From contig NC_134850.1 in assembly GCF_965363235.1 (NCBI RefSeq), forward strand, positions 34,569,102 through 34,633,101: a DNA stretch of 64,000 bases. The letters are read 5' to 3'. The position numbers were made by a program, and so were the translations under genes. Of this stretch, positions 1,648 to 63,614 are shown piece by piece. Position 1 is the first letter of the stretch, and each line of letters begins with the position of its first letter. The notes beneath the pieces were generated by a model that was given only the letters and a program-made list of their open reading frames with translations, was not told the DNA's origin and ran no database searches. Origin of the DNA: Mytilus galloprovincialis. Its lineage: Eukaryota > Mollusca > Bivalvia > Mytilida > Mytilidae.

Positions 1648-1883
1648 CTACTTTTTTTCATATTCAAATGTGTATGCTATCGTGTATAAGTTCGGGATAT
1701 TATCAACTAACCCTTTTGAATCAGTACTGAGAATTCTTTTGAATATATGTGAACGATCATGCTCATTGTTCATGTAGCAGTCGGTACAAAGATCATAATC
1801 CCCACAGATTTTACACTTCCATCTAATTCCTCGTAAAGGGTACACGTCGCATCCATCGCATTTGACATAGGGATGAATGACAC
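1648..1883 (-). CDS. ZZ zinc-finger terminal exon (E18)
   Basis: 236 bp including the TAG stop at 1648-1650, acceptor AATATAG, entered after one base. It begins VIHPYVKCDGCDVYPLRGIR, continues WKCKICGDYDLCTDCYMNNE and then HDRSH. All ligands of a ZZ finger are present: CxxC, CxxC, CxxC and H-x3-H. GIRWKC and YDLCTxCY are typical of the Mind bomb ZZ. About 35 residues of unassigned tail follow, ending in two lysines. No RING follows. I see no AATAAA on this strand between 398 and 1647; the nearest is at 392-397, so the 3' UTR may be over 1.2 kb or use a variant signal. Confidence 0.93.
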
Positions 1884-4800
1884 CTATATTGAATAATAAT
1901 TACATTAGATGTATGTTTCATTGTTATACGTTACTCTGATTGACTACACTGCAATCTCGCGTTATTCCTTAGTCAATTGCATTACACAACAACATCAATC
2001 ATTCATGATGACACGAGGTCTCACGATAAAGTGCACAGTTAACTTAATAAAAAAACTTGATAAATGAATGATCCTAGTTAAAAAAAATATAATTATAAGT
2101 ATTGCAAGCTTCTTTTTGTAACTTCATAGGGTTGTAAAAGCGTTGACTGTACGCACATTTTTAGAATAAAGCCCTTCCGCGCTTCATATAAAATGTACTT
2201 CGGTCAACGCTTTTACACCCCAATAAAGTTACAAAAAGAAACCTCATTACGTGTAAATTTATCACAAATCAAAACAAGGTTATAATCATGTTTAAGTTGT
2301 TTGGAATTTAGCAGCATTTATTATGTGCTCACAAGTGTTATCAGAAAACGGTCTGTATTCCGTTCGTGTTTGTCATTTTCAAAAATATTCAATAAATAGA
2401 GAAACTGAGGAAAACATACTTACTATATAAGTTCGAATAAGCTTGTTATGAATATAATCCAAATCACGTCGTTTTTTTCACGTCGTCAAGAAAATGTGTT
2501 GTTCCATGCATACTTTTTTGTTTGTTTTACTTTTGATTAGTTAAAACAATACTTACTCCTAAGGGGAAATATAAAACGCTTATAACGATTAGTAGGTTTA
2601 ACTAACGTGAAATAGAATTTATTATAAAAGCGTTTTGCACAAATGAACTTGTTAAACAATTGTATACAGAGTTTCAGAATATAAATGGAATAGTAAAATT
2701 GAGAATGGAAATGGGGAATGAGCCAAAGAGACAACAACCCGACCATAGAGCAGACAACAGCAGAAGGTCACCAACAGGTCTTCAATGCAACGAAGTGTAT
2801 ATTTTCAGGAACTACTAAAGCAGATCTGAAGAAATAAAAGTATAGCTTTTTATATTAGGATGAGAAAAAAATAAAGAATCTAACAGATAACGATCAAAGT
2901 TCATATTGCACAGACTATTTGAAAAGTCGTTGTAATTCTAAATGGTTTATATCGCGTATGACCACATCTTGCATTAAAACAACAGTCAACCTACGACCAC
3001 TTATACAATTTTAAAGCAGATACGTTACTGTGGAATGTTATTCCACCAAAGCAGCTCGTAGCTGGTCGAATGGCTCTGGTGGATGGCTGATAACCTCTGC
3101 GTACACGTTTGTCATGTTCATCCCATGAATGCGTCAATGGTTGATAGATCTGGCAATAAAGCTGGGCATGATAAAATGTCAATGTTATTCTGACCACAAT
3201 AGTGAATGCATAAACATTCAACGTGGCTCCAAACATTGTCCTTATGAACAATATACAAGTGTCTCTGTCTTGCGATAAATGTTTTGACAATTGGTAGGAT
3301 TATCTCGGCACAATATCGAAACGTAAAAAGACATCCGTTGATACGTCCTGTCATTTCGTCATTAATCGATTACATTAAAGTAAGCATGATTCTGCATTTC
3401 GTTCATCTTTGCGTATTAAACTCTCATTCTGCCATCACATATCCTTAACCGAAATCTCGACTCATGACTAAATATGACGTTTGCATCAACACAGTTATAC
3501 TGCCAATATGCGTTTGTCCAACGCAGAGATGCAGTAACATGGCGTCCTGAACGCTTATCAGCCTCTCGAAGCTTATAACAAACAATTTAGTGGATATTCT
3601 TGGACTATATTTCCCAGGTGGTTGTCTTAAAAGTGGAAATTGTAGGTGATAAAAATCGATCCATGAGATGAGTCAATATTTTTCGACGGCCTTGACGTAA
3701 CGTCGTTTATCATGGACAGCCACTTCGACCGCGTTCGTTAGATGACCAAGTCTTTCTCAAACTGTCCATTAGTCGTGTTGTTGTAATAGTTACCAAAGGT
3801 ACCAGGATTATAATTTAGTAAGTTTGGCATCACCAGAAGATAATGTAAACCTGTTAGTAGTTCTATCTCGCTCATTTTGATATAGACGAGGTTTTGTTTT
3901 CACTTGTGTATCATTCATTAACCTTTCGTTTGCCTATTTTTATCAAATATATTAACACTATCCTAAATCTTAAACCAGTTTTTCGAACAATATGAATTTA
4001 TTTCCGCTTAAAATTTAAAAAAAACGCACTGCGTTTTATGGTATAACAAAAACAAAGGTGAAGAAACAAATGCAGACTAATGACTGTTTTTGAACATTCA
4101 GCTAGTGGAAAAAAATGTTTTCTAATTCAAGCTATTATTTAAAAAGATTGTGTATCGTTTTAATTTTTGACAAAACGCGTCCATTGCTGTTCCTGACAAT
4201 ATCTAAATGACGTGTTTTAAATTTAAAATTAATCTTGCGAATAATGCAAATGACGTTGGTGTGAAATTATTGTAATTTAAATCACATCGATTGAGATAAC
4301 AATTGAACGTCAATTTTCAATGTTATTCAAAGGAAATGGTTTCAGACATTTGCAATAATTGCTATCAACCTTTAATACGAAATCTTACATAAATTACATA
4401 AATCATTAGATTAGTAGTTGTTGCAGTTTTTCACAAGCAAATTTATTTTTTTGCGATAAAAACAAAACCCAACCTCCATTCAGAAAAAAAATGTAACCTT
4501 ATTACCATGCGGCCCTCGAACTGATTGTTTTTTTTTTCTCCGATGATCAACATTGAACTATCTACTAAATTTGTTTTATAAATTTGTATTCTGAATGTGA
4601 ATGATAAATTAACCATTGACAAGTGTAACAAAGCAGATAGTAATCAATTCAAAAATAAGTAGGAATTGTATACAGTAATTGTAATCATAAACATGAAATA
4701 TTATTTTCATACCTATTTGTGCATTATCATATAAAAGCAAATCAAACTGGTTATTGTCTCCCTTCTTAAATTCATCATTTCCGCCTGTGTCCCATTGAAC

Positions 4801-7800
4801 TTTTACCATGCCTGATTCAGTTAAATGCACTATAGTTCCAATTGCTTTGCTATTTTCAAACTTATTATCATTTTCAGATTCCGAGCTTGGTGGTCTCACA
4901 ACTCGAAGTCCAACTTTGATTTTTTCTGAAAAATGAATTAGTATAAGAGTGAAGAAGGACATGTCATCATATATTGTACTGTTATCATGTAATTCGACCA
5001 GTTAGTTTCACAAGGATATGATTCCGTTTTAGACATTATCACGCAATAATAACATTGATACAGTTTACCTGTCCTTGTCAATATTGATTGCTCACACAAA
5101 CTACAACGATCTTAACATTGTTAATATTACAGTTTAAATATGATGCGTGCATTCATCCTAAGTATCAAAATTGTTCTAAACGTAATTAAATGTTAAAAAT
5201 GAACAACGATCACAAAAACATGTCTATTACGTACGCAACAACAAATACTATTGTTTTTAGTATTTTCCCTTTTAAGCGTCTAATCTAAATAAGCAATGTC
5301 ACTAATGGGAGACTTTTAAAACATAATTTTCAGTACTTTTTTTAATTTTCGCAAAATGATTCGACTTAAATTAATTGAAATAAACAAAAATGAAAAGAAT
5401 GTCATGAAATACGTTATTTTTCAAAGATAACTTTTGTAAAGAATATTATTTTCAAACGTTTTTATAACGTAACATTAAATGTGTATTGACAAGACATGTA
5501 AAAGTATACACACAATCTGAAGTAATTTGAAGAATGAAAATGAGCATTACAGAACCATTACAAATCGAAAAACAAGCAAGTGCAAACATGTGCTTTTTTT
5601 CTATATAAATCGATACATACATTTACATATATGTATAAACTACATATTAGACATTATAACATTCTTAGAATGTACAATGTACTTTTCTATACAATTTCCA
5701 TACCTCCAGCATATGCCTTGTGAACGTCGTAACCATGGAAGGTCGAATACACTGACAATTTTTCATCTATTCGCGGATTGTGCTGAATTTCCTGTTGTTA
5801 ATATACATATATATTTCATTTTACAGCATAAAAAACATGAGTTGAAGTAAAAATCAGGAATATATTAAATAATATATATGACTAATAAAACCGATTGTAA
5901 GTCCAGTATGATGTAATGACTTGATTTGTAATATTTGGATTTGCAATATTACTGAATTATTCGGAGAACAACAGTCCATAAGACAATACTCGACTTAGAC
6001 TACCTCAACCGTTTAACTTAAACCTGTGCTCACGCAATCAATGTACTGCAGTTTCGGGAATAATGGAGAAGGAATATTCGATACGATCTTACTGTCTTAA
6101 TCAAAACGGTTGCATAATTGCTTTTAGTTACGCACAACTAATGGCACTAATGATTTCAGTAGTTACTGTAGAAGTTATCATTAATGGAGGAAAGCGAGAG
6201 CGCTTATCAAAGTAAGCCTAAATACGACTTGAAAACTCACAATGGTCAATTAAGATTGGAGTATGTTGCACCTGACACGTGGGGGTTAGAACAAACACAC
6301 TCAGCTGCTGGTAAAGTAGATAGACAAGTTTACTCATTCGAACGTTGAGGTCCTTTCGACACAATCGAAAAAAGTGTAATTAGCGTACTCTGTTTCATAG
6401 ACATTTTTAAAGCAAACGAATGAGAAATTGTACGTGTTTATTAGGCCTTACTCATTCATTTTAACAGCATTTATCGTTCTGCACTTTTTTCTATACAAAC
6501 ATGAATTCCGCTGATTAAAGCTATACTAAATTGTTAGTGTTGTCTTCTTTATCTATAATACTAAAATTACGAGGTCCAATTTGTCAGCCGTCATCACGTA
6601 AAAACGACGAATCAAAGAATTCAACTTTATACATAACTAATATAGTACAAAGGTGTAGATTAAAAATTACACCACTCCAGACCCTTTTGTTTTCCACGTA
6701 ATTAATATTGCCAATAATTAAGAAGTTCCGGATCGAGTACGATACCGATACCAATAGTATATTCACCTGTTACCTATTACCTTATCTGTACGTTCCGCAT
6801 CTGACAGGCGCACCACCAAACGGTGTATTCAGAAGTAATATGCTATATACACGGGTCATAATCACAGGGTTGACACTACTAAATTGTCAAATTGTTACCT
6901 ATTGTAGTATTTTAATCAGTAAGACTTTCTAAGATAACAATACGAATACTAAAAATCTGTGACTAAAAATAAGGCGTATAGGTACAGTTTTCAATTTGTT
7001 AGCGGGCATGACGTAAAACACCGAATTGAAGAATTCAACTTTATTTATAACTGATATAGGACTATGCTGTTGATTAAAAGATACTCCATTCCAGGACCTT
7101 TTGTTTTCCAAATAATTAATATTACCAATAATTGATAAGTTCCAGTTCAACGGGTTCAAACAGAAAGATTTGAAAGAAAAGAAAACTGTGTATCTTATAA
7201 TTGATAAATTCCAGTTCGACGAGTTCAAACAGAAAGATTTGAAAGAAAAGAAAACTGTGTCTCTTATAATCGGCATGACTTTATCAGATGACAATACTAA
7301 TTACTAAAATAAGGCTTGCGCATAGTTATATATACCGTCTTTAATTCAGTCATGGACCCGCGATATCACGGGTGTGTTCTAGTAAAGTATAAGTACATTC
7401 CCTTTGTAGTGCATTCCCTTTGTAGTACATTCCCTTTGTAGTGCATTCCCTTTGTAGTAAATTACCTTTGTAGTAAATTACCTTTGTAGTAAATTCTCTT
7501 TGAACGTTGCAAAACATACAAAACTGAGAGCGAAAAAAGAGTATGGACACTGTATTAGCGTTTGTGATATGTGTCATTTAGGTATTCAGATATCTATTAT
7601 ATCACATACAAACAACCGATACAAGGCAAAGATTTTAATCAAAATATAAATCATAATTAATTTACGATATAAAAATTAAAAGTTTTCAAATTGATGTTAT
7701 ATCTAATATAGAGTATTGTTTTTCGTCTTTTATCTTTGCAATTATATTGATTTCAAAATATAGATTATCACCCAAAACATAGGGATGTGCAAATGAAATA

Positions 7801-9027
7801 CTTATAATTATTTTCTATATTGTTTTATAAATTGAAATTCGAACTAATATAACTAAAGTAGTTACTTTTTTTTTAATTAGTTAATTGTTTGAATGAAATT
7901 TATATTAATGCAAAGATGAACTTTCAATTTCACTTTGAAAAAATGTTAAGAAAGGTAAAAACAAAAGATGAAGTTGAAAAGCACTGAGGACTCAAAATTC
8001 CTAATGTGTTGTCAAATACAGCCAGGGTAATGCATGCGAGTAATTGGAGTATATTCTAGATATTTGTGTCCAAACATTTATCAGAATATAAGTTTACTCT
8101 TATTTAACACATTTAACTAATATTTATCTCTTCCACTGAATAATAACTTATGAAAACAATACATCATTCGACAGATCATTGTAAAATTAATTAACCTACT
8201 TTTTTCTGACTGTTTTCGTCGTCATCTTCATCATTCTCAGAGTCGAAAAACTTGTTCCCATGAACAGGCTGCAATATGATCACGTTTCAATTACTGGTGC
8301 ATGAGGCAACAAATAGAATCACAAAAATACTAACTCAGAGGTAAATCAAAGCGGAAAGTCCGTAATCACATGGCAAAATCAAATGACAAACACATATTCC
8401 TGACTTTGTACAGGCATTTTCAAATGTAGAAAATAGTGGATTGAACCTGGTTTTATAGCGCTAAACCTCTCACTTGTACGACAGTACACATTACTTGGAG
8501 AAAACTGATATTTGATAAAATATATCGGATTTCCAGTTAAACATATTTCATACGCGTACTTCACATAATGATATACTCAATGTTTTTCGTGTATTAAAAA
8601 CACCAAATCGTAATGAAATATAAACAAAAATGATGTCTATAAAAGAGAATGCACACCTTTCAAATATTATGTTATTATATATGAACTTAAGGCTTTAATT
8701 GAATCAAAAAGTCTGTAGGTCAAGATCACAATAAGACTTATATCTAGAAACATGAATGCCTTAACATTATATGTCAAACATTTATTCGATCTGCGTTGCT
8801 TTTTTCAAACTATATAAGTTTACATCTGTATTCTCTTGTTTAAACAATTGAACAAATACTGTACAGTGCTCTGGAACCATTGGTTCAGAATTATATAATT
8901 TATCTTAGTCTGATTATGTGCAATTTACGTCTTTTCATCCTATTTAACACTGCACCTTATTAAACAAAGTTGTTTATCTTTACCTTCAAATCAAATGAAC
9001 ATCCAGGAAGGTCCGTTGCCATATTGT
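1648..9027 (-). CDS. MIB_HERC2 and ZZ zinc-finger coding block (4 exons); separate gene or C-terminal tail of the TRPM gene
   Basis: Overall span of four minus-strand exons with continuous phase: 8984-9027, 8196-8268, 4713-4925 and 1648-1883. The product has a short acidic N-terminal segment, one MIB_HERC2 domain and one ZZ finger, then about 35 residues to the stop. These two domains sit side by side in Mind bomb ubiquitin ligases, where they bind substrate tails, but the ankyrin repeats and RING fingers that make Mind bomb an E3 are absent. If translation starts at the ATG in the first exon (A at -3, G at +4), the protein has 186 residues. That exon is also open upstream of the ATG and in the phase of the E14 donor, so the block may instead be the C-terminus of the channel. 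Confidence 0.85.
2109..2242. mobile_element. Short hairpin element (MITE-like) with about 38-bp inverted ends
   Basis: The left arm starts TTCTTTTTGTAAC and runs to GTAAAAGCGTTGAC. The right arm runs from GTCAACGCTTTTAC to GTTACAAAAAGAA and is its reverse complement with a few mismatches. About 55 bp of spacer lies between the arms. It sits in the intron before the ZZ exon. No coding content. Confidence 0.75.
2699..2795 (-). repeat. Fragment of repeat family D (same family as the direct repeats at 57.2 and 58.8 kb)
   Basis: Reads AAAGAGACAACAACCCGACC and then the CAACAGCAGAAGGTCACCAA segment, the reverse complement of the end of the 57201-57600 repeat. Truncated. Confidence 0.65.
2990..3790 (-). 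pseudogene. Dead Tc1/mariner-type transposase
   Basis: On the minus strand, broken frames resemble Tc1-like transposase in the expected order. Near 3700 is a DNA-binding remnant (SG-PxK-TTLRQ). Near 3430-3500 is a catalytic-core remnant in which the usual SDESRF reads SHESRF. At 3118-3354 the frame contains KDNVWSH, PALLPDLSTID, and, after a frameshift near 3125, HSWDEHDKRVRRGYQ. Several stops and at least two frameshifts are present and the first catalytic Asp is replaced by His, so it is inactive. It lies inside the last intron of the MIB-ZZ block. Confidence 0.8.
3785..3818 (+). repeat. 5' fragment of repeat family A
   Basis: Matches the opening of family A (TAGTTACCAAAGGTACCAGG, then ATTATAATTTAGTA), as at 26968 and 31521, and then diverges. 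Confidence 0.6.
4713..4925 (-). CDS. MIB_HERC2 domain exon (E17)
   Basis: 213 bp, enters after one base and leaves one base, acceptor TTTTTCAG, donor GTATGA. It encodes KIKVGLRVVRPP, a variable loop, GTIVHLTESGMVKVQWDTGG, and QFDLLLYDNAQIG. This is the MIB_HERC2 fold: the opening G-x-RVVRGP, the central GTV and VQWD strands, and the closing YDL-x(3)-DNAQIG. The loop that is normally DW-x-WG-x-QDGG is replaced by a Ser/Glu/Asn-rich stretch, so the domain is divergent. In Mind bomb this domain contacts peptide motifs in the Notch ligand tail. Confidence 0.92.
6582..7145. repeat. Pair of about 147-bp direct repeats
   Basis: 6582-6728 and 6998-7143 share GAATTCAACTTTAT, CCTTTTGTTTTCCA and TTAATATT-CCAATAATT in the same order, with about 20 percent differences by eye. 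The pair lies within the intron between the MIB and acidic exons. Confidence 0.75.
7131..7270. repeat. Tandem duplication of a 70-bp unit
   Basis: Two units, about 7131-7200 and 7201-7268, nearly identical across TTCAAACAGAAAGATTTGAA and AGAAAAGAAAACTGTGT. It is attached to the end of the second 147-bp repeat. Confidence 0.85.
7388..7502. repeat. Minisatellite, about seven units of 16 bp
   Basis: The unit is ATTCCCTTTGTAGTGC with variants ATTACCTTTGTAGTAA. The first units are nearly perfect and the last degrade toward 7500. Confidence 0.9.
7968..8040 (+). repeat. Family A internal fragment
   Basis: Carries AAGTTGAAAAGCACTGAGGA, then AATACAGCCAGGGTAAT, corresponding to the middle of the family A copies at 13361 and 31521. 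Confidence 0.6.
8196..8268 (-). CDS. Acidic linker exon of the MIB-ZZ block (E16)
   Basis: 73 bp, acceptor ATTGCAG, phase 0 in and one base out. It encodes PVHGNKFFDSENDEDDDENS, then QKKV. Two donors overlap: AAAAAA|GTAGGT would end in phase 0 and put the MIB exon out of frame, whereas GTAG|GTTAAT ends in phase 1 and keeps it in frame, so I chose the latter. Its composition resembles the acidic end of E14. Confidence 0.72.
8325..8490 (+). repeat. Interspersed repeat family C copy
   Basis: Contains AACTCAGAGGTAAATCAAAG, ATCACATGGCAAAATCAAAT and TTCCTGACTTTGTACAGGCA. One of the fuller copies of this family. It lies in the intron between E15 and E16. Confidence 0.65.
8984..9027 (-). CDS. First exon of the MIB-ZZ block (E15 if fused), contains a possible start codon
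   Basis: 44 bp, acceptor TATTTCAG, donor GTAAAG, ending in phase 0. It reads two bases, an Asn codon, then MATDLPGCSFDLK. The ATG at 9020-9022 has a reasonable start context. The two leading bases (AC) complete an AAC codon when joined to the single A left by E14. The clear acceptor shows that something is spliced onto it, either a 5' untranslated exon or E14. It has no recognisable domain. Confidence 0.7.
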
Positions 9028-12740: not shown

Positions 12741-12747
12741 TATTTGA

Positions 12748-13690: not shown

Positions 13691-13699
13691 CACTCAATC

Positions 13700-15514: not shown

Positions 15515-15515
15515 A

Positions 15516-26600: not shown

Positions 26601-26612
26601 GATTTCGATATG

Positions 26613-34165: not shown

Positions 34166-34169
34166 TTGA

Positions 34170-38012: not shown

Positions 38013-38014
38013 GG

Positions 38015-38470
38015 CCCTAATTCCTAAACTGTTGGCACCAAAACTCCCAAAATCAATCCCAACCTTCCTTTTATGGTCATAAACCTTGTGTTTAAATTTC
38101 ATAAATTTCTATTTACATATACTTAAGTTATTGTGCGAAAACCAAGAAAAATGCTTATTTGGGCCCCTTTTGGCCCCTAATTCCTAAACTGTTGGGACCT
38201 CAACTCCCAAAATCAATCCCTACCTTTCTTTTGTGTTCATAAACCTTGTGTTTAAATTTCATTGATTTTTGTTTACTTAAACTAAAATTTTAGTGCGAAA
38301 ACAAAGAATAATGCTTATTTGGACCCTTTTTTGGCCCTTAATTCCCAAACTGTTGGGACCAAAACTTCCAAAATCAATCCCAGCCTTCCTTTTATGGTCA
38401 TTAACCCTGTGTTTAAATTTCATAGATTTCTATTCACTTATACTTAAGTTATAGTGCGAAAACCAAAAGT
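38015..38470. repeat. Tandem array, about 170 to 180-bp units (three copies)
   Basis: Units carry CTAATTCCTAAACTGTTGG, AACTCCCAAAATCAATCCC, CTTGTGTTTAAATTTCAT and TTATTGTGCGAAAACCAAGA. Three copies follow directly after the 130-bp array. Confidence 0.92.
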
Positions 38471-43315: not shown

Positions 43316-43317
43316 TA

Positions 43318-43774: not shown

Positions 43775-43938
43775 CAAATGTTAGGACGATTATTCTTACT
43801 TGATGTTTCTAAATCAATAGAACTTGACAGTTCATCGGAATCCTCTTCATCTGACATTGAGGAATCACTTTTCTGTTCCTCTTCCTCTTCGTCCGAAGTG
43901 AAATCTGCATCTTGTATAATTTTGGCGGTTTTTGATAC
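43774..43938 (-). CDS. TRPM exon E14: acidic serine-rich exon, either terminal or spliced on
   Basis: Acceptor TATTATTAG, phase 0. It encodes VSKTAKIIQDADFTSDEEEE and then a Ser/Asp/Glu tract (SDSSMSDEEDSDELSSS) full of casein-kinase-2-like sites. Two ends are possible. A good donor (TCAA|GTAAGA) lets the exon stop at 43800 in phase 1, which fits the exon at 8984-9027. If that donor is ignored, eight more residues lead to a TGA at 43774-43776, overlapped by an AATAAA at 43769-43774, with another at 43703-43708. The coordinates given are for the read-through form. Confidence 0.75.
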   Translation of the reverse strand, partial: VSKTAKIIQDADFTSDEEEEEQKSDSSMSDEEDSDELSSSIDLETSSKNNRPNI

Positions 43939-52900: not shown

Positions 52901-55900
52901 AAATATTTTAATGACACATGCCAATCAGTTACAAAAGTATAACCTAGTTGAATCTGCTACACATATTAAACAGATCAAACGAAAGACTAATTACCATTAA
53001 TACTGACAGCATTTAATTCACTCTTAATTAGTTTATTTCTGTTGTTGTGCATGTGTTTCTGGAAGCAGACAAGACAAAACTTTTAAAATATTTTTCCAGA
53101 AAATTAACCGAAAACAAAAGATTTCTGATTGATTTTATCACTTGATTTATCATACATGTAAAGCTGTTCACTTTGTATATCCCTTATAAACAAATATTTA
53201 TATCGGCTAAAGAGAAATCGTGAATTCAAAACGTCGCGAATTAAAAACGGCGCATATATCCCGGTTTACAGTAGATACGTAATTGGCTTGCTTGATAAAA
53301 AAAAAATCGGACGTCGTCATTAGTCGTTTGCTCTGAATGAAAGAGAAAAAAAATATAATCAACAGAGAAAAAAAACATAAATAACGTTTAACTGTTACCA
53401 TTACGAATTAGTTTGCCGAGGCAATGGACTAAACCGAATTGGTTATATCACATGACGAATTATGCAGCCTTATTCTGTGTTCGCAACTGGTTTCCATTAT
53501 TGTAGAAATGATACAAATTCAAAAGTCTCTTTTTCTTAGTATGCAATAATGACATTTTAATTCGCTAAAAATAATACATGTATATCATCCCTCAATACTG
53601 TTATCTTTTATATATAGTATTAAACGAAATGGACAAATGAAGATGCATGTTCTTCAGACTAAGTTAATGGATATGTACTAACAACTTTTTCAAGAACACT
53701 GATAATGTACGGACATTACTAAACGCTAAGCTTTATCAAGTGCTGTTGTTAATGGTTGTGGAAACTGCTACAAACTGGGCAATATACTTAAGGCAATATA
53801 ACATGCAAGGATTTGTCAGTTTTTTGTAGCAAAAAGTAGTTCGAATCTTTTTCTAAATACTGAATCAGTTGATATTCATATCGATTGAGGCACTTAATTA
53901 TATTGTTTATAGAAATCTTAACATTGGGAGAATATGTCTTGAGTATAAATTATTTTCTTAGAGTTATAAGCAATGCATATATAGGTATTTAAAACATTGT
54001 GTTGACAATTTGTAAATTTTATATTCAATCAAATCAATTTCTTAAAAAAATATTTCAGAGACCGACAGAATGTCTTGCATAGTGGCACCAAAGACTTGGA
54101 AAACAACAAAAGCATGAGATGTAGAACATATATCATAAACACAACCGCAAAATGAATACACTTTAAAGCGTTAATTCATAAACCACACACATAGACTTCA
54201 GTAGTTAAAATGTTGATACTTTGCAAGAACTCAATAAATTATTGCCAGCATAATCATAGACAATTATTAAACTAATATGTATATTGTCAAAAGCTTGAAA
54301 GAATATGTTATTAACAGATCGGAAAGTGTTATGACATGTTTCATACAAATACCTCATAGTGTTAGTAATGTCATATTTTACCTGTACATTGCTATTAGCA
54401 GGTTTAGCAATAATATTACAGCTATCAATCCATAGAAAGCTTTCAAGTAAGGCACTAGATGTAACCCAAACGTTGAGGGACATTGTTGCAAGGCCCCAGA
54501 ACTAAACAAAGCTCTGTTGAATGTACAGTCTGGTACAGTTACTGGAATTTTGTAATATAAATTTACAATGGCAAGTTGATAGACATTATTCTGTATTATA
54601 TTTGAAATACTTATGCATTATTTAGTGGTAAACATGGTAAAGTGATCGTTTATCTTGCATAAATATACACTTTTTTCATTTCTATACAATGACATATTAC
54701 TGGTAAATTCAGTTCTAGGTCAACTATTTGCAGAAACTGTATGATCTTTTTTCTATTCATTAAGACTGTTTTTATAATCCGAATGCCTTGACCTTTACCT
54801 AAGTATATATGAATTGTACTGTAGTGATTGTAATGTATTAATTACTCGGTTTTTTTGTATATAAAGTCAAACAATTATACATTCCATCAGACTACAATTC
54901 TATAATTCTATAATGCCTTATTTTCTGTTATGTTTATTATTATTATTTATACATAACATGTATTTTTTCTATGTTTAAGTCATGTACTCTAATAATTTAC
55001 TTCAATGCTTATAATTTATATAACATATACAAGTATTACGAAGAAATGAATGATAAGAGTTTCTGATCTGATGTAAAATTATAAAATTTAAAAATAATTT
55101 AATTTTTATTACATAGCAAATAAATAAAAAGAGACGTTGTGCGATGTTCTAACCACGGCCTCACAATTGAAAATGATAAGTTTAAGCTTGCACTAGAACC
55201 ATATTTGTTTACCTTTTTCCCCATCTAAATTAAGTTCACCAAATAACATCCAGTATCCATTTTTTGTAATCTTTTCCAGCTCTGACCATGTAAACTCAGA
55301 GTTAGTATATAAAAGAGCGTGAAAAGATATATTATAACACATCATAATCACTGCCATGATAGCCATAAAGGCACCTGTATCTGAAAACTGAAAAAAACGA
55401 AACCATATTTACGATGTCTAGTGATGTACATAAAACATGTTCATTTAATTCAATTCTTATGTACAGTATAGTTTAATTCCTACAATTAAAAGATTGTATA
55501 GAATATATTCATAAGGGGGTTAACATTTTGAAAATCAGCTGAACAATTTTAGCACATTCTATTAGTTAAGGTGGCTCCTGAGTACAAAAATTTCAGCAGA
55601 AATTTAAACCTTTATTTTTTCATTACAAGGTTTATTTATTACACTGCTAGTTATTACTTTATGATATGGTACAAAAATCAACCCACAAAATTGAGTCGGT
55701 TTGGCCCCAGATGACTTTTAAAATGTTTATATTATTGAAAAAGCTCCAAATTATCTCCCTTTGGTGCAAAAATGCCATTTTTTGGCATTAAATTTGAAAT
55801 ATCTTTTTTAACTTATCGGTGACCTATATTTTTTATTTTTGTTTTCAAATAAGCTGTACATAAACTAAATAATTGTAAAATTTAAGCGATTTCTGCAATT

Positions 55901-58900
55901 AGGTTATTTTTTATTTTGATATTACACCTATTTCTACTATTAGTTCAACAGAAAAAAAGGACATTAACAAAAATGTATGCTTCTTCCAGAGGCAGATTGT
56001 GAGCTTAAATGAACGGTGACCCCATCTTTTTATTTCATTTTTCTTTTTAGTATATGATAAAGTTCATTTATAAAAAAATATAGCGAAATCTTATATTAGA
56101 AAAAAAAATTGATTTATACCCAGGAGCCTTAAGAGATTAAGAGTATACCCTATTGTTTTAGCAATTGTCTTTGGTAACAGACTGAATAATAAATACATTG
56201 ACATGATAGGCATTGGTTGATCGTCTTCATACTTGTGGAAATAGCGCTTCATTTGTTTTTGTTTGCATTTTTGGTTTGAAAATTACATCTTTTCTAATTA
56301 TATAAAGTTTCTACAATAAATCTATAGAAAATAACTATGTATTGACATGGTTAATAATTTCGCCTGTATCGTTGTTGTACTGAGAGAAATACAAACGAAA
56401 TACACGTAAATTGTTACCAAATTTATACATACCATTTTGCGAATCATGACTAACTTGGGACCAAGAATCTCCGACATACAGAACAGATTTAGGATCCGTA
56501 TGCACAAAAGTATAAAAGCAAATACTAATGAGACCTTCGATGCATCTTGATAAATTCGTTTTTCGCCAAACTTCAGACACATTCCAACGGTATATACCAA
56601 TATTGAACACCAATCTAACCGATTCCACCAGTCACTAACGTAACTTTTCCATTTCCTTCGTATAATTGATACAATATGCTTAAAATATAATAAGACGGGT
56701 ATTAATCAAGAACTTGTAGATACAGTACATGCAGTAGTAACCTGTGCAAAAACATTTTAAAGCTACATGTATGTCTAATACACAATTTTCTACATAAAAA
56801 AATGGATGTACCAGGTCAGGAATATGAACATCCCTTCTTTTGATGTGTTGACCTTTTTTGTTATGCCATTTTAATAAGGAAACCTAAATGGCTCGGGATT
56901 ATTAAAACAACGTCAGGAGCCTGTAATTCATTGATTGTCATTTATTTTTTCGTTCAAAATTTTATACAAATAAGGTTATAAAGTATAACAAACTAATAAG
57001 TTAGTTTTTTTGTTTGAATTGTCTCTTGTTGACAGTTGTCTCATTTGCAATCATACTGCATCTTCTTTTTTATAGTTACAGCAACCATACAAAAATCTGC
57101 TGCAAAGGACTGGACAATGTCTGTAGGAAATCTGAGAGACATATGGCACAAATTAAGGACATCAGAAAACTAAGTATGCACAAAATGCACAGAAATTATC
57201 TGACATCGGACTCGGACTTCTCCTAAACTAAGCATTACTATGCGTATTGTTGTATGTTTGCTTTTTCTACATTGACTAGAGGTATAGGGGAGGGCTGAGA
57301 TATAAAGAAAACATGTTTAATCCCGCTGCATTTTTGCGCATGTCCGAAGTCAGGAGCCTCTGGCTTTTGTAAGTCATGTATAATTTTAATTTTAGTTTCT
57401 TTTATATATTTCGGAGTTTAGTATGACATACATTATCACTGAACTAGTATACATTTTTGCTTAAAGGCAAGCAGAAGTACTCCTCCGTGTATGTGATTTT
57501 CTCGATGCATCAAAGACCCATTGTTGGCCTTCAGCTGTTATCTGCTCTTTCGTCGGGTTGTTGTCTCTTTGACATATTCCCAATGTTCATTCTCAATTTT
57601 TTTTCCAGTCTTTGGTACAAATATTCATGACATTTATTCTGACGGTTTTGGAAATGAAATTAGTTTTTTTTGTTTTAAGAAATGAATTTCTTTGAATACA
57701 CACATATATCGTCAAGTTATTGGAATTCCAATGGGGACTAACTGTGCATCACTTATTGCGGACCTTTTTTTTATTATTATGAGTTACAATTTATGACTAA
57801 AATTCACAAAGACCCATCAAAACAATATCTGATAAAAAAAATTAAACAATACTCTTAGATATTTGGATGATATATTGGCTCTCAATAATGACGACTTCAG
57901 TATGTATACTAAAGAAATTTATTCTGTTGAACTTACTTTAAATAAAGTTTATACTAACAATGACCACTGCCCTTTCCTCGATCTTGATATCTATATCATT
58001 AACGGGAAGCTTAATACCAAAATTTATTATAAAAGAGATGATTTTTCATTTCCTATCGTTAATTATCCATTTTTAGATGGTGACGTTCCCTTGTCACCAT
58101 CTTATGGTGTTTATATATCTCAACTTGTACGATTAGCTCGTGTATGTAGCAACGTATTAGATTTTAGTGAGAGAAATTTATGTATTACTGAAAAATTATT
58201 ACACCAGGGTTTTTGATATCACAAACTGGTCAAAACATTTACTTAATTTTATCACCGGTATAAGGAAATAATTCGTAAATATAACTCAACATGCAGACAT
58301 CTTATACGTTCATGTATTTCACATCCAATCTTTTATGGTAATATTCTTTACAAAGCACAAAAATGTCAGTATTCACCTCAAAAGCTTACAAAACCTTTAA
58401 ACAGACTTATTAAGAAGGGATATAGTTACGATACTGTTGTCAGGTCATTAAAGATTGCATATTTTGACTTTAATATTGATTCACTTATAGGGTCTTTGCA
58501 TCGGAACTAAACACATTTATTTTTTTAAAAACAGTTATTGGCATGACACGGGTTCTGTTCTTCTCATATATTTTATGATAGTATGATACTAAACCCCTAA
58601 CGGGAGGGATTGTGCCTGATATTCATATGATGAAGACATAATCTTTCAATCAGTCAAATTGAGGTCTGGAGCTGGCATGTCAGTTAACTGCTAGTAGTCT
58701 GTTGTTATTTATGTATTATTGTCATTTTATTTATTTTCTTTCGTTACATCTTTTGACATCGGACTCGGACTTCTCTTGAACTGAATTTTAATGTGCGTAC
58801 TGTTATGCGTTTACTTTTCTACATTAGCTAGATGTATAGGAGGAGGGTTGGGATCTCATCAACATGTTTAACCCCGCCGCAATTTTGCTCCTGTCCCAAG

Positions 58901-61900
58901 TCAGGAGCCTCTGGCCTTTGTTAGTCTTGTATGATTTTTGATTTTAGTTTCTTGTGTATAATTCGGAGTTTAGTATGACGTCCACTATCACTGTACTAGT
59001 ATACATATTTTAGGGGCCAGCTGAAGGACACCTACGGGTGCAAGAATTCTCGCTACATCGAAGACCCATTGGTGGCCTTCGACTGTTGTCTGCTCTATGG
59101 TCGGGTTGTTGTCGTTTTGACACATTCCCCATTTCCTTTCTCAAATTAACTAATTATCAAATAAATGGTTTAAATACCTATATATGCATTGGGATTGATA
59201 TTGTGTTCGACATTTGCTCTTATAACTCATAACTCATAAAGAAAATCGTTTATGCTGAAGACATGTTCTCCCCCGTCTACGATTGCTTTTAGGAGTGTTT
59301 TTAAAATAAAGCCTATTGTATTGTTTTGTATTGTATTGTATTGCTAACCATATAATAAAGTGCATTAATCTATATGTATAACAACTGAGTCAGCATTTTA
59401 GAAAAAAATTAAGCGGTGCTACACTACTGTTAACTCCAAAAACTGAATACCTTTGCCTTTTTTATGTTGCATTATGTACAATTTGTAGAATTGTCCACAA
59501 GCATTAACCTTCACAATTGATAAAGCTTAGCGTTTAGTAATGTGCGTAAATTATTAGTGTTCTTGAAAAAGTTATTAGAACATGTCAATTTACTTAGTCA
59601 GCAGCACATGTTTGTGCATTTGTCTATTTCGTTAATCACTATAAATAAAAGATAACAGTAGTTTACGGAACGGATGATATAATATCTTCAATGTCATGAT
59701 TGCATGTCACGAAAAAGAGACTATCGAATTTTATTATTTCTAAAATAAGGGAAACAAAATGTGAAGACAGAATAATAGTGAATAATTCGTCACGTAGTAT
59801 AACCATTTCGGTTTAGTCCATATTTTAAGATTACTCAAAATTGCTGAAAATTGTTCATATTCCCGCTGAAATGACGGTGGTAAATCTATGTTTCTATATT
59901 CATAAAACAAGTAATCTATAATCTGCGTTGTTTGTCAATCCGTTGTATACACATCACAAACTAGTTGGAACATAAAAAAAGACTAATTCTCTCCATCGGG
60001 TGGACTTTATGAAAGCCTCAAATACACATACAGACATCTTATTGATTATACTTTTTGTAAATTCGGCGTTAACTCTACTTTCATATCAAAAACAAACAAG
60101 ACCAAAGATCTGCGTTTAAGGACGTACATTGACCTATAATGGTTTTTTTGTAAATGTGACTTAGATGGAGTACTTTTCGTTTTTGATGCGTTTTGTTATT
60201 TGATTTTGCCATGTGATTATGGACTTTCCCAATTGATCTTCCTCTAAGTTCAGTATTTTTGTGATTTTACTTTTTTCTTACAATTCATATCACATCTTCT
60301 TATATTTAGAAAACACAATCGTTGAGCTGTAAGGATAATTGAGTACCTGTTTGGTTTCGTCCACGAAAAAGCTCACCATCCAAGTGATTATGAAAAAGTC
60401 TGTGTGTGAAATTCCATTCACTCTGTAGTCAAATAACAGCATGTATGCATAAGCAAAAAGAAGCCACAAGAATCCAATCTGTGAAAACATATATTGAATA
60501 AAACATGAGTCATAAAAATTGATTATATTAACGTAAAGGTTAATGTTTTTATTGACAAAGCAAAACATGCTGATGTCGAAAAAAACATAACAGATTTGTA
60601 ATCAATTCATGAACTTGTTTTCTAATTCTAACACACTTATTGGTATACATTTGAAAGCACTCCCCCTTATCTGTTCGGTCTAAATGTTTATGTATAAGTA
60701 TCAAATTTATTTTGATTGACAAATGTTCAACACTTCTCTAACAAACAAACCTGATCCAATCAACACGTGTTTCTGTCAAAATCATTCCGAACAAATTAAA
60801 CGGTCATGCAACAGGTTTTAAAAAATTGTCTTAATCTATATAACGAAATATTAAGTTTTCGTAAACATGTTACACCACGACCGTTTAATATAACATAACT
60901 TACCAAATGAATGCAAACTTTCATGAATGGCAGTTTGTATTGCTTATATAACCTGAAAATATATAATTTGATGTTATGGGTTTTCTTTCATGATTTTCTT
61001 GAACAAGGTTGCTGTGTATAATTTAGCTAAATTAAGTTGTGAAATTGGATTATTACTTTCGAAAATGTTGGTTGAACGGTATGGAATCACTTATTCATAG
61101 AAGAGGGACGAAAGGTACAAGAGGAACAGTCAAACTCATAATTCAAAAAAAAAAAACTGACAACGCAAATGAAAAGGACAAACAGACATACAATAGTACA
61201 CATGACGCAACATAGAATACTAAAGAATAAGCAACACTAACCCCACCAAAACCTAGGGCTTATCTCAGGCGCTCCAGAAGCGTAAGCAGATCCTGCTCCA
61301 CATATAGCACCCGTCGTGTTGCTCATGTTATAATAAATCCGGTAAATAGCCTAATTCGGTATGTCACATTCATGAAAGAGAACGAGATTGTAGTTACGAC
61401 ATAACATGATAAGGAATAGATCCGATATCATCTGTGAAACGGTTATTCCATAACGGTCAACTAACTCGTGATGGCGTCCGTAAAATTAACGAAGGGATGA
61501 TTTCAACTTCACCATTTGTAAGTCTTGGTATAATAGCTTTCTTGTGAACAGCAACCTTCTATCAAGAAAATCATAATTGGTACTCTTAATATAATAAGAT
61601 ACAATTGTTTAGTCAATGTGTTCCAATATTTCTGTATTTGTGTTAAACAGTTCATTTCCAGCTACGAAATGTACTGTATAATGCTTACCCTTCCGGATCA
61701 CTTGATTTCACTCCCGGTTTTAAGTGGAGTTCGTGTTGTTTCTTATTTATTATTTTTAACTGTTGATGTAAATGTCCTTTGGTTTTGTGAGTCTTTGTTT
61801 ACTTCTTAGTTTTGATTGCTTTTGTCTTCGGGTGTATTTCGGTTGCAAAAACTCTTCAAAGTCGCGGTTGCTTTGCTGCCAACTATTTCAATTCGTAAAT

Positions 61901-63614
61901 AAGCGAGGAGTCTTATGCAGACGGGGCAATATGCGTTATTGTTACTCCATAGGCGGTAATGGTAACGTTTTTTTTCTGTAGCTCAGCCCATATCGTAAAC
62001 GTTTATATGTATGATGGCTTGTTTCGAAGCTGAGATATTTTTACATATGTGGTTAAATTTTCCAGGTACGAAGTTTGATTCATTTTTCCGTAAATTAGCA
62101 TACCCCGATCTTTTCGTGATGCGGCTCTTCATGGCAAAAAGTGCCTTTTTCCACACAATAATTTCTTTGAAAATTTAATACTTTGAATACATATAATAAC
62201 TGCATAGTTTTTACACATTTATTCTAAGGTCCTATACTTTCCAGATCAACACAAAAAGTTAAGCTCAGTCACTTGTTAAAGATTTAAACCTTCGTCATAT
62301 ATAACTTGGATCATCTTGCGGGCTTTGGACTTTCTAAAATTACTTAACTAGCGTCTGGCAGATTCGTGGTATATAATAACTGTTAACATTTGTACACACT
62401 AAACACCTCACATTTTGTTTTCCTCCAAAATGATATTAGTTTTTTATTCTTTTATCTAACTACTAGTAACTTACCATAGCGTCGGACGTGTTTCCATAGT
62501 TACCATCAGCAAAGGTAACAATATCATGTGACAGGCTGCGAGAACAATGTAACCAACAATCTAAAACGTTGAATAGTTATAAAATTGTTGAGCTATTGTA
62601 CCTTATTGAACAAATCGACAGACAAGGGACGAAAAACAAACATGTTGATATTAATTTTTAACAGAATAAGAACAGGTCTGTCAACAAGACAGCATCTTCT
62701 ACTCGATGTGCGTAAACGGTGTCATTAAATTGTCTGTTTTCATATTGATCCGTTTCTATTTCAAAGTACAGTTATTTCGATCAGAGTAAGCTCATTCGAG
62801 TGTCAATACAGTTGATTATAAGATTTCATTTAAGATTAATAAAAAAATATCCCTTATATAAAACCGTTAAGAACCAATTGGATAAGACGATTTGAAGTCG
62901 ATAATTTACTTTTTATGATACCCTTATTAAATAGGTAACTACCATACTATGTATATGAAATTAAAGCACTCACTACAATGTAAAAAAAAATATAAGGTAC
63001 AAAAATTTAAAACAACATTTTAACTCGGCCAGGAAAAAGGACAATCACACAATTAATTAGACATAGGTACAAATCACCTATGAACAACATTTTACACTAT
63101 ATGGAATAATGCGCATTTCTAAATATTAATACCTTTTCATAATTTGTGGAATTTAGCATATACAAAAATAAGGGGATTATAATTATAAAAATGGTAAAAC
63201 AATAAAATTATGCACAAAACGATAACTTTTAATTAGATGTTCGTTATTTAGCCTATGGTTATACGCATTGCAAAACATCATATTTTCAATATATACTTTC
63301 TTACCGTTTTTAGATCTCTGTGTTCTAATCCATACCACATTTTGTTTATGATATTCCGCACTTCTTTGTTGTCCAGAAACGTTCTGTTCTGTGTCTTTAT
63401 AGCATCTTCGATGTATCCATGATTTAGTAACAGTCTGCCGGCATGGTTGATATGTTCACCCAATTCCCTGTCCTCCTTACTATTCGACTCGACCTCTTTT
63501 CCAGTAGGGTTATTCCGCATGTTCCGCATGTTCCGTTTCTGTTTATCGTTTTCAGTTTTCTTGTCAGTCTCATATATAGACTCTAAAATGCGAGATGCCC
63601 TCTGCGTGAAGGCC
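43774..63614 (-). CDS. TRPM-family cation channel gene, C-terminal half (14 exons, 5' end outside window)
   Basis: This is the overall span of a minus-strand multi-exon gene, numbered here from the first exon in the window (E1, 63305-63614) to E14 (43774 or 43800 to 43938). TRPM proteins form tetrameric, non-selective or Ca/Mg-permeable cation channels in plasma or organelle membranes. The order seen is a pre-S1 helical repeat ending in MWYG, S1 to S6, a pore with FGEL and a cysteine pair, the S6 signature NLLIAMY, a TRP-helix region, short coiled-coil exons, and an acidic tail. Every intron has GT-AG ends and all phases join without a break, giving about 616 codons. The N-terminal LSDAT-type region expected of the family would lie beyond 64000. 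I cannot say which TRPM subtype it is: the pore FGE resembles TRPM1/3/6/7 more than the FGQ of TRPM2/4/5/8. No NUDIX or alpha-kinase domain is seen. Confidence 0.9.
45170..45485 (-). repeat. Interspersed repeat family F copy in a TRPM intron
   Basis: Contains GGCACTGTCTTCAACACGGA, AAGCTATAAAGGGCCC, CATCAACAAACGACCACTAC and TCCTGATTTAGGACAGGTGC, as in the 30100-30645 block. Confidence 0.65.
46625..46678 (-). CDS. TRPM exon E13: coiled-coil exon
   Basis: 54 bp (18 codons), phase 0 at both ends, acceptor CATATCAG, donor GTTTGT. It encodes IMKRLKDMHGSFGRIEKE, again helical and charged. With E11 and E12 it forms a run of three symmetric exons (26, 13 and 18 codons) whose inclusion could change the coiled-coil length. 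Confidence 0.72.
47430..47468 (-). CDS. TRPM exon E12: coiled-coil micro-exon
   Basis: 39 bp (13 codons), phase 0 at both ends, acceptor GCAAACAG, donor GTTAGT. It encodes KDMDKYLREMKKV, an amphipathic charged helix that continues the coiled coil of E11. Symmetric phase allows optional use. Confidence 0.72.
48113..48190 (-). CDS. TRPM exon E11: coiled-coil exon
   Basis: 78 bp (26 codons), phase 0 at both ends, acceptor TTTAACAG, donor GTTAGT. It encodes KLQTQLDSNSSKLEQLNERN and continues with charged residues, with leucines spaced in a heptad-like way. TRPM channels tetramerise through a C-terminal coiled coil at about this distance from S6. Being symmetric in phase it can be skipped without a frameshift. 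Confidence 0.78.
48743..48776 (-). CDS. TRPM exon E10: micro-exon before the coiled coil
   Basis: 34 bp, first base completes a Gly codon, ends in phase 0, acceptor AATTCCAG, donor GTAAAT. It encodes GEIDIMETDRIT. It is one of several very short exons here and is accepted because it is the only nearby piece that moves the phase from 2 to 0, as needed by the following coiled-coil exons. Confidence 0.7.
48935..49090 (+). repeat. Interspersed repeat family C copy
   Basis: Contains AAATGGCAAAATTAAAAGCT, AACAACTGTCATATTACTGA and CTTGGTACAGTTATTTCCTG. Lies in the intron between E9 and E10. Confidence 0.7.
49318..49755. repeat. Repeat family B: two direct copies around a family A tail
   Basis: 49318-49402 and 49672-49755 share CACGAGCATCACTGAAGAGA, GTCGAAATGCGCATCTGGTG and AAGAAAATTGATACCGTTAA. 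Between them, 49433-49492 reads TCCCCGAGGGTATCACCAGC and CCAGTAGCCAGTACTTCGGT, the reverse complement of the family A tail. Confidence 0.85.
50238..50319 (-). CDS. TRPM exon E9: C-terminal cytosolic linker
   Basis: 82 bp, entering after one base and leaving two (GG), acceptor TATTTTAG, donor GTAAAA. It encodes a polar segment, VFLYNTNFDLKLKSTNE, then AEGNGAMKAK, with no recognisable domain. The support is the match of splice sites and phase to E8 and E10 and the lack of stops. In TRPM channels this place holds the connection from the TRP region to the coiled coil. Confidence 0.72.
50425..50830 (+). repeat. Repeat family E copy
   Basis: Contains CTACCCTTCCGGAACACCTG, ATCACCCCCAGTTTTTGGCG, and TTGTTTGTCTTTTGG. 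Same family as 61677-61960, and inverted relative to 61085-61590. The small plus-strand frames over it are repeat-derived. Confidence 0.75.
51599..51876 (-). CDS. TRPM exon E8: TRP-helix region and post-S6 segment
   Basis: 278 bp, first base completes a Ser codon (AG|T), leaves one base, acceptor TTTCAAG, donor GTAAAC. It encodes SNTFKVVHEEAEFYWSQLQ, which aligns with the TRPM stretch NNTF-x-x-V-x-x-x-S-D/E-x-x-W-K-F-Q that forms the TRP helix. The usual KFQR is replaced by SQLQ, so the TRP box is divergent. It continues with FLEEY, the Pro-containing turn, and a second hydrophobic stretch (VQLLVLPVIIIHAFIWFCC) matching the membrane-associated helix after the TRP helix. It ends in a polar, Asp-rich tail. 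Confidence 0.92.
52578..53273. mobile_element. Small inverted-repeat transposon with TA target site
   Basis: The element 52580-53271 starts CTGTAAACAAGGGAATTTTTGCG and ends with CATATATCCCGGTTTACAG, so about 15 bp of each end are inverted copies. Both sides are flanked by TA. This is the arrangement of Tc1/mariner-type MITEs. Several GCGAATT or GCGAAATT phrases occur inside. No transposase. It lies in the intron between E7 and E8. Confidence 0.75.
53425..53776 (+). repeat. Left arm of an inverted repeat bracketing TRPM exons E5 to E7
   Basis: Starts TGGACTAAACCGAATTGGTT and ends near GGTTGTGGAAACTGCTACAA, with ACATTACTAAACGCTAAGCT inside. It pairs in inverted order with 59482-59820. The arms differ by substitutions and small gaps but keep the same order along about 340 bp. 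Confidence 0.8.
54382..54529 (-). CDS. TRPM exon E7: outer pore cysteine pair and S6
   Basis: 148 bp, entering with two bases to complete a codon and leaving two bases (AG), acceptor GTACCAG, donor GTAAAA. A second AG (CAACAG) and a third (GTTTAG) lie just downstream, but both break the frame. The exon encodes DCTFNRALFSS, then QQCPSTFG, so two cysteines bracket the outer pore as in most TRPM channels. It ends with S6 carrying LLLNLLIAMY, the family hallmark. Together with E6 it completes the ion pathway. Confidence 0.94.
55213..55387 (-). CDS. TRPM exon E6: S5 and pore helix with FGEL filter
   Basis: 175 bp, entering in phase 0 and leaving one base, donor GTAAAC. Two AG acceptors lie 7 bases apart (TTTTTTTCAG then TTTTCAG). 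Only the upstream one keeps the frame, so I chose it. S5 contains AFMAIMAVIMMCYNISF. The pore helix and filter read NGYWMLFGELNLDGEK, matching the TRPM pattern aromatic-W-x-x-F/Y-G-E/Q. The Glu after Gly and the following Asp and Glu make an acidic outer pore. A 567-bp inverted-repeat element sits just upstream in the intron. Confidence 0.93.
55566..56132. mobile_element. Small inverted-repeat element with TTAA flanks
   Basis: The left end reads TTAAGGTGGCTCCTGAGTA and the right end TACCCAGGAGCCTTAA, inverted copies apart from a two-base difference. TTAA at both edges is the target site duplicated by piggyBac-type elements, though the internal terminus is not the usual CCC. 567 bp, no coding content, in the intron between E5 and E6. 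Confidence 0.65.
56433..56678 (-). CDS. TRPM exon E5: S3, S4 and S4-S5 linker
   Basis: 246 bp (82 codons), phase 0 at both ends, acceptor TATTTTAAG, donor GTATGT. It encodes a basic stretch (RRKWK), the TRPM S3 signature SDWWNRLDWCSILVYTVG, a short loop, and S4 with the linker segment SEILGPKLVMIRKM. The last of these is the strongly conserved LGPK-MI-KM segment of TRPM channels between S4 and S5. S4 has few positive charges (one Arg in CIRIL), as expected for TRPM rather than for voltage-gated channels. The intron before it (56679-60346) carries a retroelement relic. Confidence 0.95.
57201..57600 (+). repeat. Upstream 400-bp direct repeat flanking a reverse transcriptase relic
   Basis: Starts TGACATCGGACTCGGACTTC and ends ATGTTCATTCTCAATTTT. 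It matches 58754-59145 in the same orientation, including AGTCAGGAGCCTCTGGC, TTCGGAGTTTAGTATGAC and GGGTTGTTGTC. The placement on both sides of the RT relic resembles the long direct repeats of Penelope-like elements. Confidence 0.85.
57690..58512 (+). pseudogene. Reverse transcriptase relic, Penelope-like
   Basis: The plus strand shows RT motifs in order: RQVIGIPMGTNCASLIADLF at about 57711-57770, a frameshift in a T-run, then RYLDDILALNND at about 57857-57892 (the YxDD catalytic box), then FLDLDIYIINGKLNTKIYYK and DDFSFPIVNYPF. A stop follows at about 58214, after which related sequence continues with further stops (KPLNRLIKKGYSYDTVVRSL near 58390-58450). At least two frameshifts and two stops make it inactive. 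I place it near Penelope-like elements by the GIPMGTNC and FLDL pattern and the flanking direct repeats; another non-LTR group is possible. Confidence 0.78.
58754..59145 (+). repeat. Downstream 392-bp direct repeat flanking the reverse transcriptase relic
   Basis: Starts TGACATCGGACTCGGACTTC and ends CCCCATTTCCTTTCTCAA. Partner of 57201-57600. A (TATTG)n run follows at about 59316-59343. Solo or truncated members of the same family are at 2699, 12748, 15516 and 32045. Confidence 0.85.
59482..59820 (-). repeat. Right arm of an inverted repeat bracketing TRPM exons E5 to E7
   Basis: Contains AAAGCTTAGCGTTTAGTAATG near its start and AACCATTTCGGTTTAGTCCA at its end, the reverse complement of the two ends of 53425-53776. 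It lies in the intron between E4 and E5. Confidence 0.8.
60165..60270 (-). repeat. Interspersed repeat family C, inverted copy
   Basis: Contains GATTTTGCCATGTGATTATG, GACTTTCCCAATTGATCTTC and CTCTAAGTTCAGTATTTTTG, the reverse complement of the start of the 8325 copy. Confidence 0.7.
60347..60478 (-). CDS. TRPM exon E4: S2 and start of S2-S3 linker
   Basis: 132 bp (44 codons), phase 0 at both ends, acceptor TTTCACAG, donor GTACTC. It encodes S2 (IGFLWLLFAYAYMLLFDY) followed by a short extracellular-type turn and the segment IITWMVSFFVDETKQ. This is the TRPM pattern W-x-F-x(2,3)-E-E/D-x-R/Q at the cytoplasmic end of S2/S3. Because the exon is a multiple of three, skipping it would keep the frame but remove a membrane helix. 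Confidence 0.92.
60904..60952 (-). CDS. TRPM exon E3: S1-S2 linker micro-exon
   Basis: 49 bp, acceptor TTTTCAG, donor GTAAGT. The first base completes the split Trp codon from E2 and the exon ends in phase 0. It encodes WLYKQYKLPFMKVCIHL, which corresponds to the conserved TRPM segment with an aromatic residue, then a basic residue, then Pro-Phe, leading into S2. The exon is identified by phase and motif, since it is very short. Confidence 0.85.
61085..61590 (-). repeat. Repeat family E, long inverted copy
   Basis: Contains GAGGGACGAAAGGTACAAGA, AACCCCACCAAAACCTAGGG, AGCGTAAGCAGATCCTGCTC and CAACTAACTCGTGATGGCGT. About 500 bp in the intron between E2 and E3. Its start is inverted relative to the copy at 61677. 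Confidence 0.8.
61677..61960 (+). repeat. Repeat family E copy
   Basis: Contains GCTTACCCTTCCGGATCACT and TAAGTGGAGTTCGTGTTG. It faces the 61085-61590 copy, so the two form an inverted pair in one intron. Small plus-strand frames here are repeat-derived. Confidence 0.75.
62475..62560 (-). CDS. TRPM exon E2: transmembrane helix S1
   Basis: 86 bp, acceptor TTTTAG, donor GTAAGT, entering in phase 0 and leaving two bases (TG). It encodes a hydrophobic helix containing YIVLAACHMILLPLLMV, followed by a short polar segment. The position directly after the MWYG motif of E1 and the helix length fit TRPM S1. The last codon is completed by the first G of E3 to give Trp. It is too short to stand out as an open frame on its own; the splice sites and the phase match to both neighbours are the main support. 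Confidence 0.88.
63305..63614 (-). CDS. TRPM exon E1: pre-S1 helical region (MHR4-like)
   Basis: 310 bp, acceptor TTTTTAG, donor GTAAGA, entering in phase 2 and leaving in phase 0. It encodes 103 residues. The C-terminal part, with FLDNKEVRNIINKMWYG, matches the stretch just before S1 in TRPM channels, where a helix pair ends in W-Y/W-G. The first half is a highly charged loop rich in K, E, N and R and contains a small in-frame repeat of Asn-Met-Arg, from a 9-bp duplication near 63510-63535. The charged loop looks like a species-variable insert between two helices. The preceding exon is beyond the window. Confidence 0.88.

Follow-up and report, generated by a model that had tools for sequence, protein, structure and literature searches.

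In this work, we have analysed a 64,000-nucleotide stretch of DNA from the mussel Mytilus galloprovincialis (the window), in which exons of a TRPM channel and exons coding for a MIB_HERC2-like domain and a ZZ zinc finger follow one another on the minus strand. An earlier sequence-only reading had joined them into a single channel with a C-terminal MIB_HERC2-ZZ tail. By our analysis, the window very probably contains two genes that lie next to each other on the same strand and belong to a single expanded family: gene A, a TRPM channel gene that ends at 42996, and gene B, which starts at 9022 with a MIB_HERC2-ZZ head and runs off the left edge of the window. The supposed C-terminal fusion is most easily explained as an artefact that arises from these two same-strand neighbours. 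We base this proposal on how the exons are arranged, on where gene A ends and gene B starts, and on the head-first order found in mussel relatives, from which gene B would be expected to go on to a TRPM channel left of base 1, and gene A to carry a similar head upstream of 64000.

Gene A codes for a TRPM channel and probably ends at its own last exon

Rebuilding of the exons in the window gave 14 TRPM exons for gene A on the minus strand, running from 63614 to 43800, all with AG/GT borders and in the order previously claimed for them. The gene extends upstream past position 64000, A1 being the earliest exon in view. In the following list, as in the rest of the text, fetched database proteins are given by P numbers.

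63305..63614, minus strand: A1, first visible exon, pre-S1 region (splice borders; tblastn 85% to P0001)
62475..62560, minus strand: A2 (tblastn and splice borders)
60904..60952, minus strand: A3 (tblastn and splice borders)
60347..60478, minus strand: A4, S1 (tblastn and splice borders; S1 label from TRPM anatomy)
56433..56678, minus strand: A5, S2-S4 (TRPM2 structure match, tblastn, splice borders)
55213..55387, minus strand: A6, S5, pore helix and filter FGE (tblastn, splice borders, NGYWMLFGEL string)
54382..54541, minus strand: A7, outer pore and S6 (tblastn and splice borders)
51599..51876, minus strand: A8, TRP helix onward (tblastn and splice borders)
50238..50319, minus strand: A9 (tblastn and splice borders)
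48743..48776, minus strand: A10, EIDIMETDRIT (tblastn and splice borders)
48113..48190, minus strand: A11, likely coiled coil by TRPM anatomy (tblastn and splice borders)
47430..47483, minus strand: A12 (tblastn and splice borders)
46625..46678, minus strand: A13 (tblastn and splice borders)
43800..43938, minus strand: A14, called E14 in the sequence-only reading, acidic tail (donor CAA/GTAAGA, one base left over)
42996..43021, minus strand: A15, likely last exon, NDPDCRMQ then stop TAA (phase; tail like P0002, P0003 and P0041)

On sequence grounds, gene A is the channel half of a TRPM protein. Its S2-S4 open reading frame (ORF) matches solved TRPM2 (E 3.5e-11), and its product shares 92% identity with the Mytilus trossulus TRPM model P0001 over 517 residues and, with A15 added, 88% with M. 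californianus P0003 over 492 residues; by the TRPM2 match and the identity to P0001, the TRPM signature is present across S2-S6. Exon A6 carries the string NGYWMLFGEL, identical in 22 of 86 fetched proteins, which we take to be the TRPM pore filter, and A7-A8 carry LLNLLIAMYSNTF...FLEEY in their translation, presumably the TRP helix.

The one-gene proposal, a TRPM channel that gains a C-terminal MIB_HERC2-ZZ tail through splicing of E14 to 9027 in the main transcript, is highly improbable in our view. Several of its premises hold: the E14 donor leaves one base, the exon at 9027 takes the matching phase, and the joined frame is open up to the proposed ZZ stop. A recount gave 19 exons and 841 residues for this frame in place of 18 and 804, with five MIB/ZZ exons up to the ZZ in place of four. 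The E14 donor is, however, also taken in the same phase by A15 after an intron of 778 bases; its A plus AT gives AAT (Asn), and the spliced product reads ETS-NDPDCRMQ-stop. The acceptor sequence of A15, TTTTATTTTACAG, lies before the DPDCRMQ tail, and across all 15 exons the frame has a single stop, at its end. P0002, P0003 and P0041 end in N/H-DP-D/E-CKMQ, and C-K/R-MQ ends are found in four of 85 fetched proteins (these three and P0052), while the more distant paralogues listed end differently. We do not regard phase agreement at 9027 as informative: A15, which is probably the last exon, fits the donor in that phase too. The channel would end at A15, with the MIB/ZZ exons beginning another gene.

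No enzyme domain of the NUDT9H or kinase type follows the coiled coil in gene A, which ends at 42996 after its acidic tail. Unspliced, the E14 frame runs for 8 further residues to a TGA at 43776-43774, with AATAAA at 43774, 43767 and 43708. This frame running on into the intron was rejected as the main form, since the tails of the relatives match the spliced exon; the TGA with its AATAAA signals is a possible short alternative 3' end of gene A. The CRMQ end (CKMQ in P0002, P0003, P0041 and P0052) resembles a CaaX box, by which the protein would be predicted to be farnesylated.

Gene B probably begins with a Mind-bomb-like head

The exons assigned to gene B, together with the stop at which the one-gene frame had been ended, are the following.

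8984..9027, minus strand: B1, ATG at 9022-9020, MATDLPGCSFDLK (strong acceptor, phase)
8200..8268, minus strand: B2 (splice model)
5704..5791, minus strand: B3 (tblastn and splice model)
4713..4925, minus strand: B4, MIB_HERC2-like domain (Pfam, tblastn, splice model)
1712..1883, minus strand: B5, ZZ zinc finger with all eight zinc ligands (Pfam; donor AGG/GTTAGT at its end)
1648..1650, minus strand: proposed ZZ stop, inside the intron after B5 in the splice model, not coding
235..332, minus strand: B6, reading GEQMPPRENQKITHALGIQPNAIVYLYGDHKHK with two bases from B5 (resembles P0051 past its ZZ)

The ZZ finger is above the Pfam cut-off (E 4.2e-11). The B4 ORF, around 4925-4713, matches Pfam MIB_HERC2 at E 2.4e-5 and 24.6 bits, under the cut-off of 33.5, and also matches SH3-C_UBE2O at 22.7 bits, just over that model's cut-off of 21; we use the MIB_HERC2 label because of B4's own match and of the matches above cut-off in the relatives P0051 and P0081. 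Gene B carries the MIB_HERC2 plus ZZ combination of the Mind bomb E3 ligases, with MIB_HERC2 under cut-off in gene B itself. Neither ankyrin nor RING was in the Pfam lists of ten relatives (P0071, P0075, P0083, P0084, P0042, P0036, P0085, P0086, P0051 and P0081), gene B itself being cut by the window.

Counted from the ATG at 9022, 36 residues precede the EIQ motif, and P0051, a M. edulis model, has 41 before its DIQ. At the other end, the joined frame does not finish at 1648-1650 as had been claimed: the ZZ exon is cut at AGG/GTTAGT after 1712, and the exon 332-235 carries on in phase with EQMPPRENQKITHALGIQPNAIVYLYGDHKHK. That the ZZ stop is intronic counts against the one-gene transcript. 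The continuation past the ZZ is 58% identical to P0051 over 225 residues, and gene B continues past base 1. Between B4 and B5, minus-strand ORFs at 2994-3672 resemble a decayed transposase by eye, and a Pfam scan of them gave no match; the weak tblastn matches of TRPM queries there (8 of 487 matches) are probably due to chance.

The module precedes the channel in most mussel relatives that have both

Of 85 fetched proteins, 17 contain parts of both the module and the channel, with the module first in 15 and last in two (P0001 and P0085). A further search added P0086, of 1348 residues, with a ZZ at its start and the channel at 925-1236. All 18 of these proteins are named as Mytilus, from five species. 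The profiles for module and channel were built partly from the same relatives (the MIB profile partly from P0083, P0036 and P0015), and the protein searches return relatives of limited length that share exact five-residue words, by which other architectures may be missed. Independently of these profiles, ZZ and Ion_trans are both matched by Pfam in P0071, P0075, P0083, P0042 and P0086, the ZZ coming first in all five. Four of the 17 (P0073, P0074, P0075 and P0080) are isoforms of one locus, P0006 covers just 23 residues of the ZZ and P0079 just 66 of the channel, so the independent genes are fewer than 17-18. The claim that TRPM and MIB_HERC2/ZZ occur in one protein is upheld in kind in mussel models, but with the module N-terminal in 15 of 17, plus P0086, an order that is the reverse of the one-gene proposal.

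The module was found in none of 13 oyster models (Saccostrea and Ostrea), whose channels start at or before residue 416 and which may therefore be cut short. NCBIfam matched two of three proteins, in both cases with TRP alone and under the cut-off. Among the AlphaFold models, that of P0016 is poor (mean predicted local distance difference test, pLDDT, 54.7) and the structure matches listed for it are TRPM, while that of P0081 is middling (mean pLDDT 62.9), with an alpha/beta segment at 591-800 in which block pLDDT is mostly 73-90; no TRPM or SLOG structure was among the matches listed for P0081 (best 50 in one search), which is not evidence of absence.

A tree was built from 42 hand-chosen database rows and gene A, P0015 being dropped for its incomplete channel. 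The mussel and oyster channels group together, and the branch leading to them is 2.56 changes per column long, to be read with long-branch caution; it separates them from Ruditapes, Amphiura and hemichordate TRPM2-like rows and may reflect very fast change or a deep paralogue. Since P0001 and P0085, with their C-terminal module, are included under the tree label 'NtermMIBZZ', the count of changes was not used.

Points that weigh against two head-first genes

Several observations pull away from the two-gene proposal. The acceptor of A15 is ordinary and weaker than that at 9027: in a simple model trained on the other 19 acceptors of the window, A15 scores 6.8 (44 of 1569 AGs equal or better) and 9027 scores 9.8 (7 of 1513 AGs between 43.79 and 9.03 kb), which bears out the claim that the latter acceptor is good. 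Strength taken alone would favour the join to 9027; because the A15 tail, common to the nearest relatives, is conserved in them, we prefer A15 (42996-43021) as the likely partner of the E14 donor and the channel's own final exon.

Among 76 channel-bearing proteins, 59 show no module, many of these being short models. Pfam MIB_HERC2 was found in none of P0071, P0075, P0083, P0084, P0042, P0036 and P0085 at E up to 0.01, so that the 'MIB' label in these seven rests on our self-built profile. The Pfam model of the TRPM SLOG domain (LSDAT_euk) was unmatched in P0086 and P0081 at E<=0.1, the control P0064 giving 1.1e-74; in gene A, the N-terminal melastatin homology region with SLOG would lie outside the window.

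The channel part of gene B would likewise lie outside the window, and this fits a gene B that codes for a small stand-alone MIB/ZZ protein, as do six module-only models (P0051, P0055, P0076, P0078, P0081 and P0082). We consider such a protein unlikely. P0051 and P0081 extend into what, in longer models, is the part before the channel, and there the overlap is 88% for P0081 with P0058 and 64% over 91 residues for P0051 with P0002; P0055 holds a 48-residue TRPM piece, and these models look cut short.

The two proteins with the module last are also exceptions to be explained, and both lend support to the one-gene proposal. P0001, the closest relative of gene A, goes directly from its A10 counterpart to a MIB_HERC2-like unit that shares 67% identity with B4, and Pfam MIB_HERC2 is weak in it and positioned after the channel. 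This is the strongest evidence for the sequence-only reading, though at another junction than E14-9027. P0001 is an NCBI model without a ZZ, with a repetitive tail and with no A11-A15 sequence, which is kept in P0002, P0003 and P0041; it could stem from model merging or from an infrequent read-through, and it suggests that similar neighbours adjoin in M. trossulus too. In P0085, ...HNSEQEGQPASTQL is followed by seven unmatched residues, after which the sequence matches the P0077 head from its residue 8. P0046, with a 123-residue stretch identical to P0085, stops precisely at this STQL; the C-terminal ends of P0071 and P0075 are PASTQL and that of P0077 is PAFTQL. From these ends, P0085 is best read as the end of one copy fused to the head of the neighbouring copy.

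The same two models could record separate genes with occasional read-through, in which A exons are spliced into B exons to give a minor chimeric channel: P0001 links A10-like sequence to a B4-like unit, and P0085 is a comparable join. That explanation is very unlikely, as no ZZ is seen in either model, P0001 ends in its repetitive tail without A11-A15 sequence, and an annotation program could yield both from same-strand neighbours. The two-gene proposal also carries a warning: same-strand neighbours can lead programs and readers to fuse the end of one copy with the next head, and P0001 and P0085 appear to be cases of this.

Possible function and relation to known systems

Under the two-gene proposal, the cytosolic ligand of the MIB_HERC2-ZZ head would be a peptide or the N-terminus of a protein, whose binding or release would shift the N-terminal TRPM assembly by which the cation pore is gated. 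As neither RING nor ankyrin turned up in the scanned relatives, the function of the head is probably to recognise a ligand, not to attach ubiquitin. In P0042, an M. edulis model of 888 aa, a CARD (E 1.8e-9) is followed by a ZZ and then by the TRPM channel; the CARD suggests an immune role, and P0042 could itself be a merged model. A wider picture, which we offer tentatively and hold to be rather doubtful, is that of an expanded, partly tandem mussel TRPM family with a Mind-bomb-type head (MIB_HERC2-ZZ, sometimes doubled, with a CARD in one model) before the channel, whose gating would depend on a peptide or protein N-terminus; such a channel might serve as an innate immune receptor that lets calcium in on binding its target, with the window spanning the gap between two neighbours.

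The transmembrane part, the FGE-filter pore and the TRP helix are like those of TRPM2/TRPM3-type channels, with a sequence match to solved TRPM2/3. Unlike these, the mussel relatives have a Mind-bomb-like head before the channel, no NUDT9H or kinase in the Pfam lists of the ten relatives, and the SLOG model unmatched in P0086 and P0081. TRPM2, TRPM6 and TRPM7 carry C-terminal enzyme domains and in this sense are also TRPM channels with an added module, but the mussel module is N-terminal and of a binding type; since it precedes the channel in the relatives, the parallel drawn earlier with those enzyme tails does not apply. The head of a relative resembles the region of Mind bomb 1 that grips a Notch-ligand peptide. 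In contrast to Mind bomb 1 MZM-REP (PDB 4xi6/4xi7), the lists of the ten relatives hold no ankyrin or RING, and the head is joined to a cation channel in longer models. HERC2 and p62 also have ZZ fingers, with which gene B is compared at the level of the domain.

TRPM channels with an added module are described in the text of PMC8539334, and that of PMC8004665 gives 21 TRPM2 copies in the oyster and tandem duplication among TRP genes. 'Zinc finger' and 'ubiquitin' have zero occurrences in the main text of the metazoan, scallop and oyster TRP surveys (PMC13143021, PMC8539334, PMC8004665). A literature search on MIB_HERC2, ZZ or Mind bomb with TRPM, Mytilus or bivalves, whose coverage leaves most subscription journals outside, did not find the head-first MIB_HERC2-ZZ/TRPM arrangement described; the models are already public as 'TRPM2', 'MIB' or 'uncharacterized'. 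The TRPM family is known for enzyme tails, and a substrate-binding head of ubiquitin-ligase type in front of the channel, if true, lets one ask whether a protein or peptide ligand gates a TRPM pore.

Other features of the window

An Rfam scan of the window gave nothing at gathering score, and a Pfam scan of six window ORFs, the reverse-transcriptase-like and transposase-like ones included, gave no match. The former lie at 57836-58507 on the plus strand, inside an intron of gene A, and with their YLDDI motif look by eye like a reverse-transcriptase fragment. Between genes A and B, at 38009-38466, there is a tandem repeat of 160 bases in 2.9 copies.
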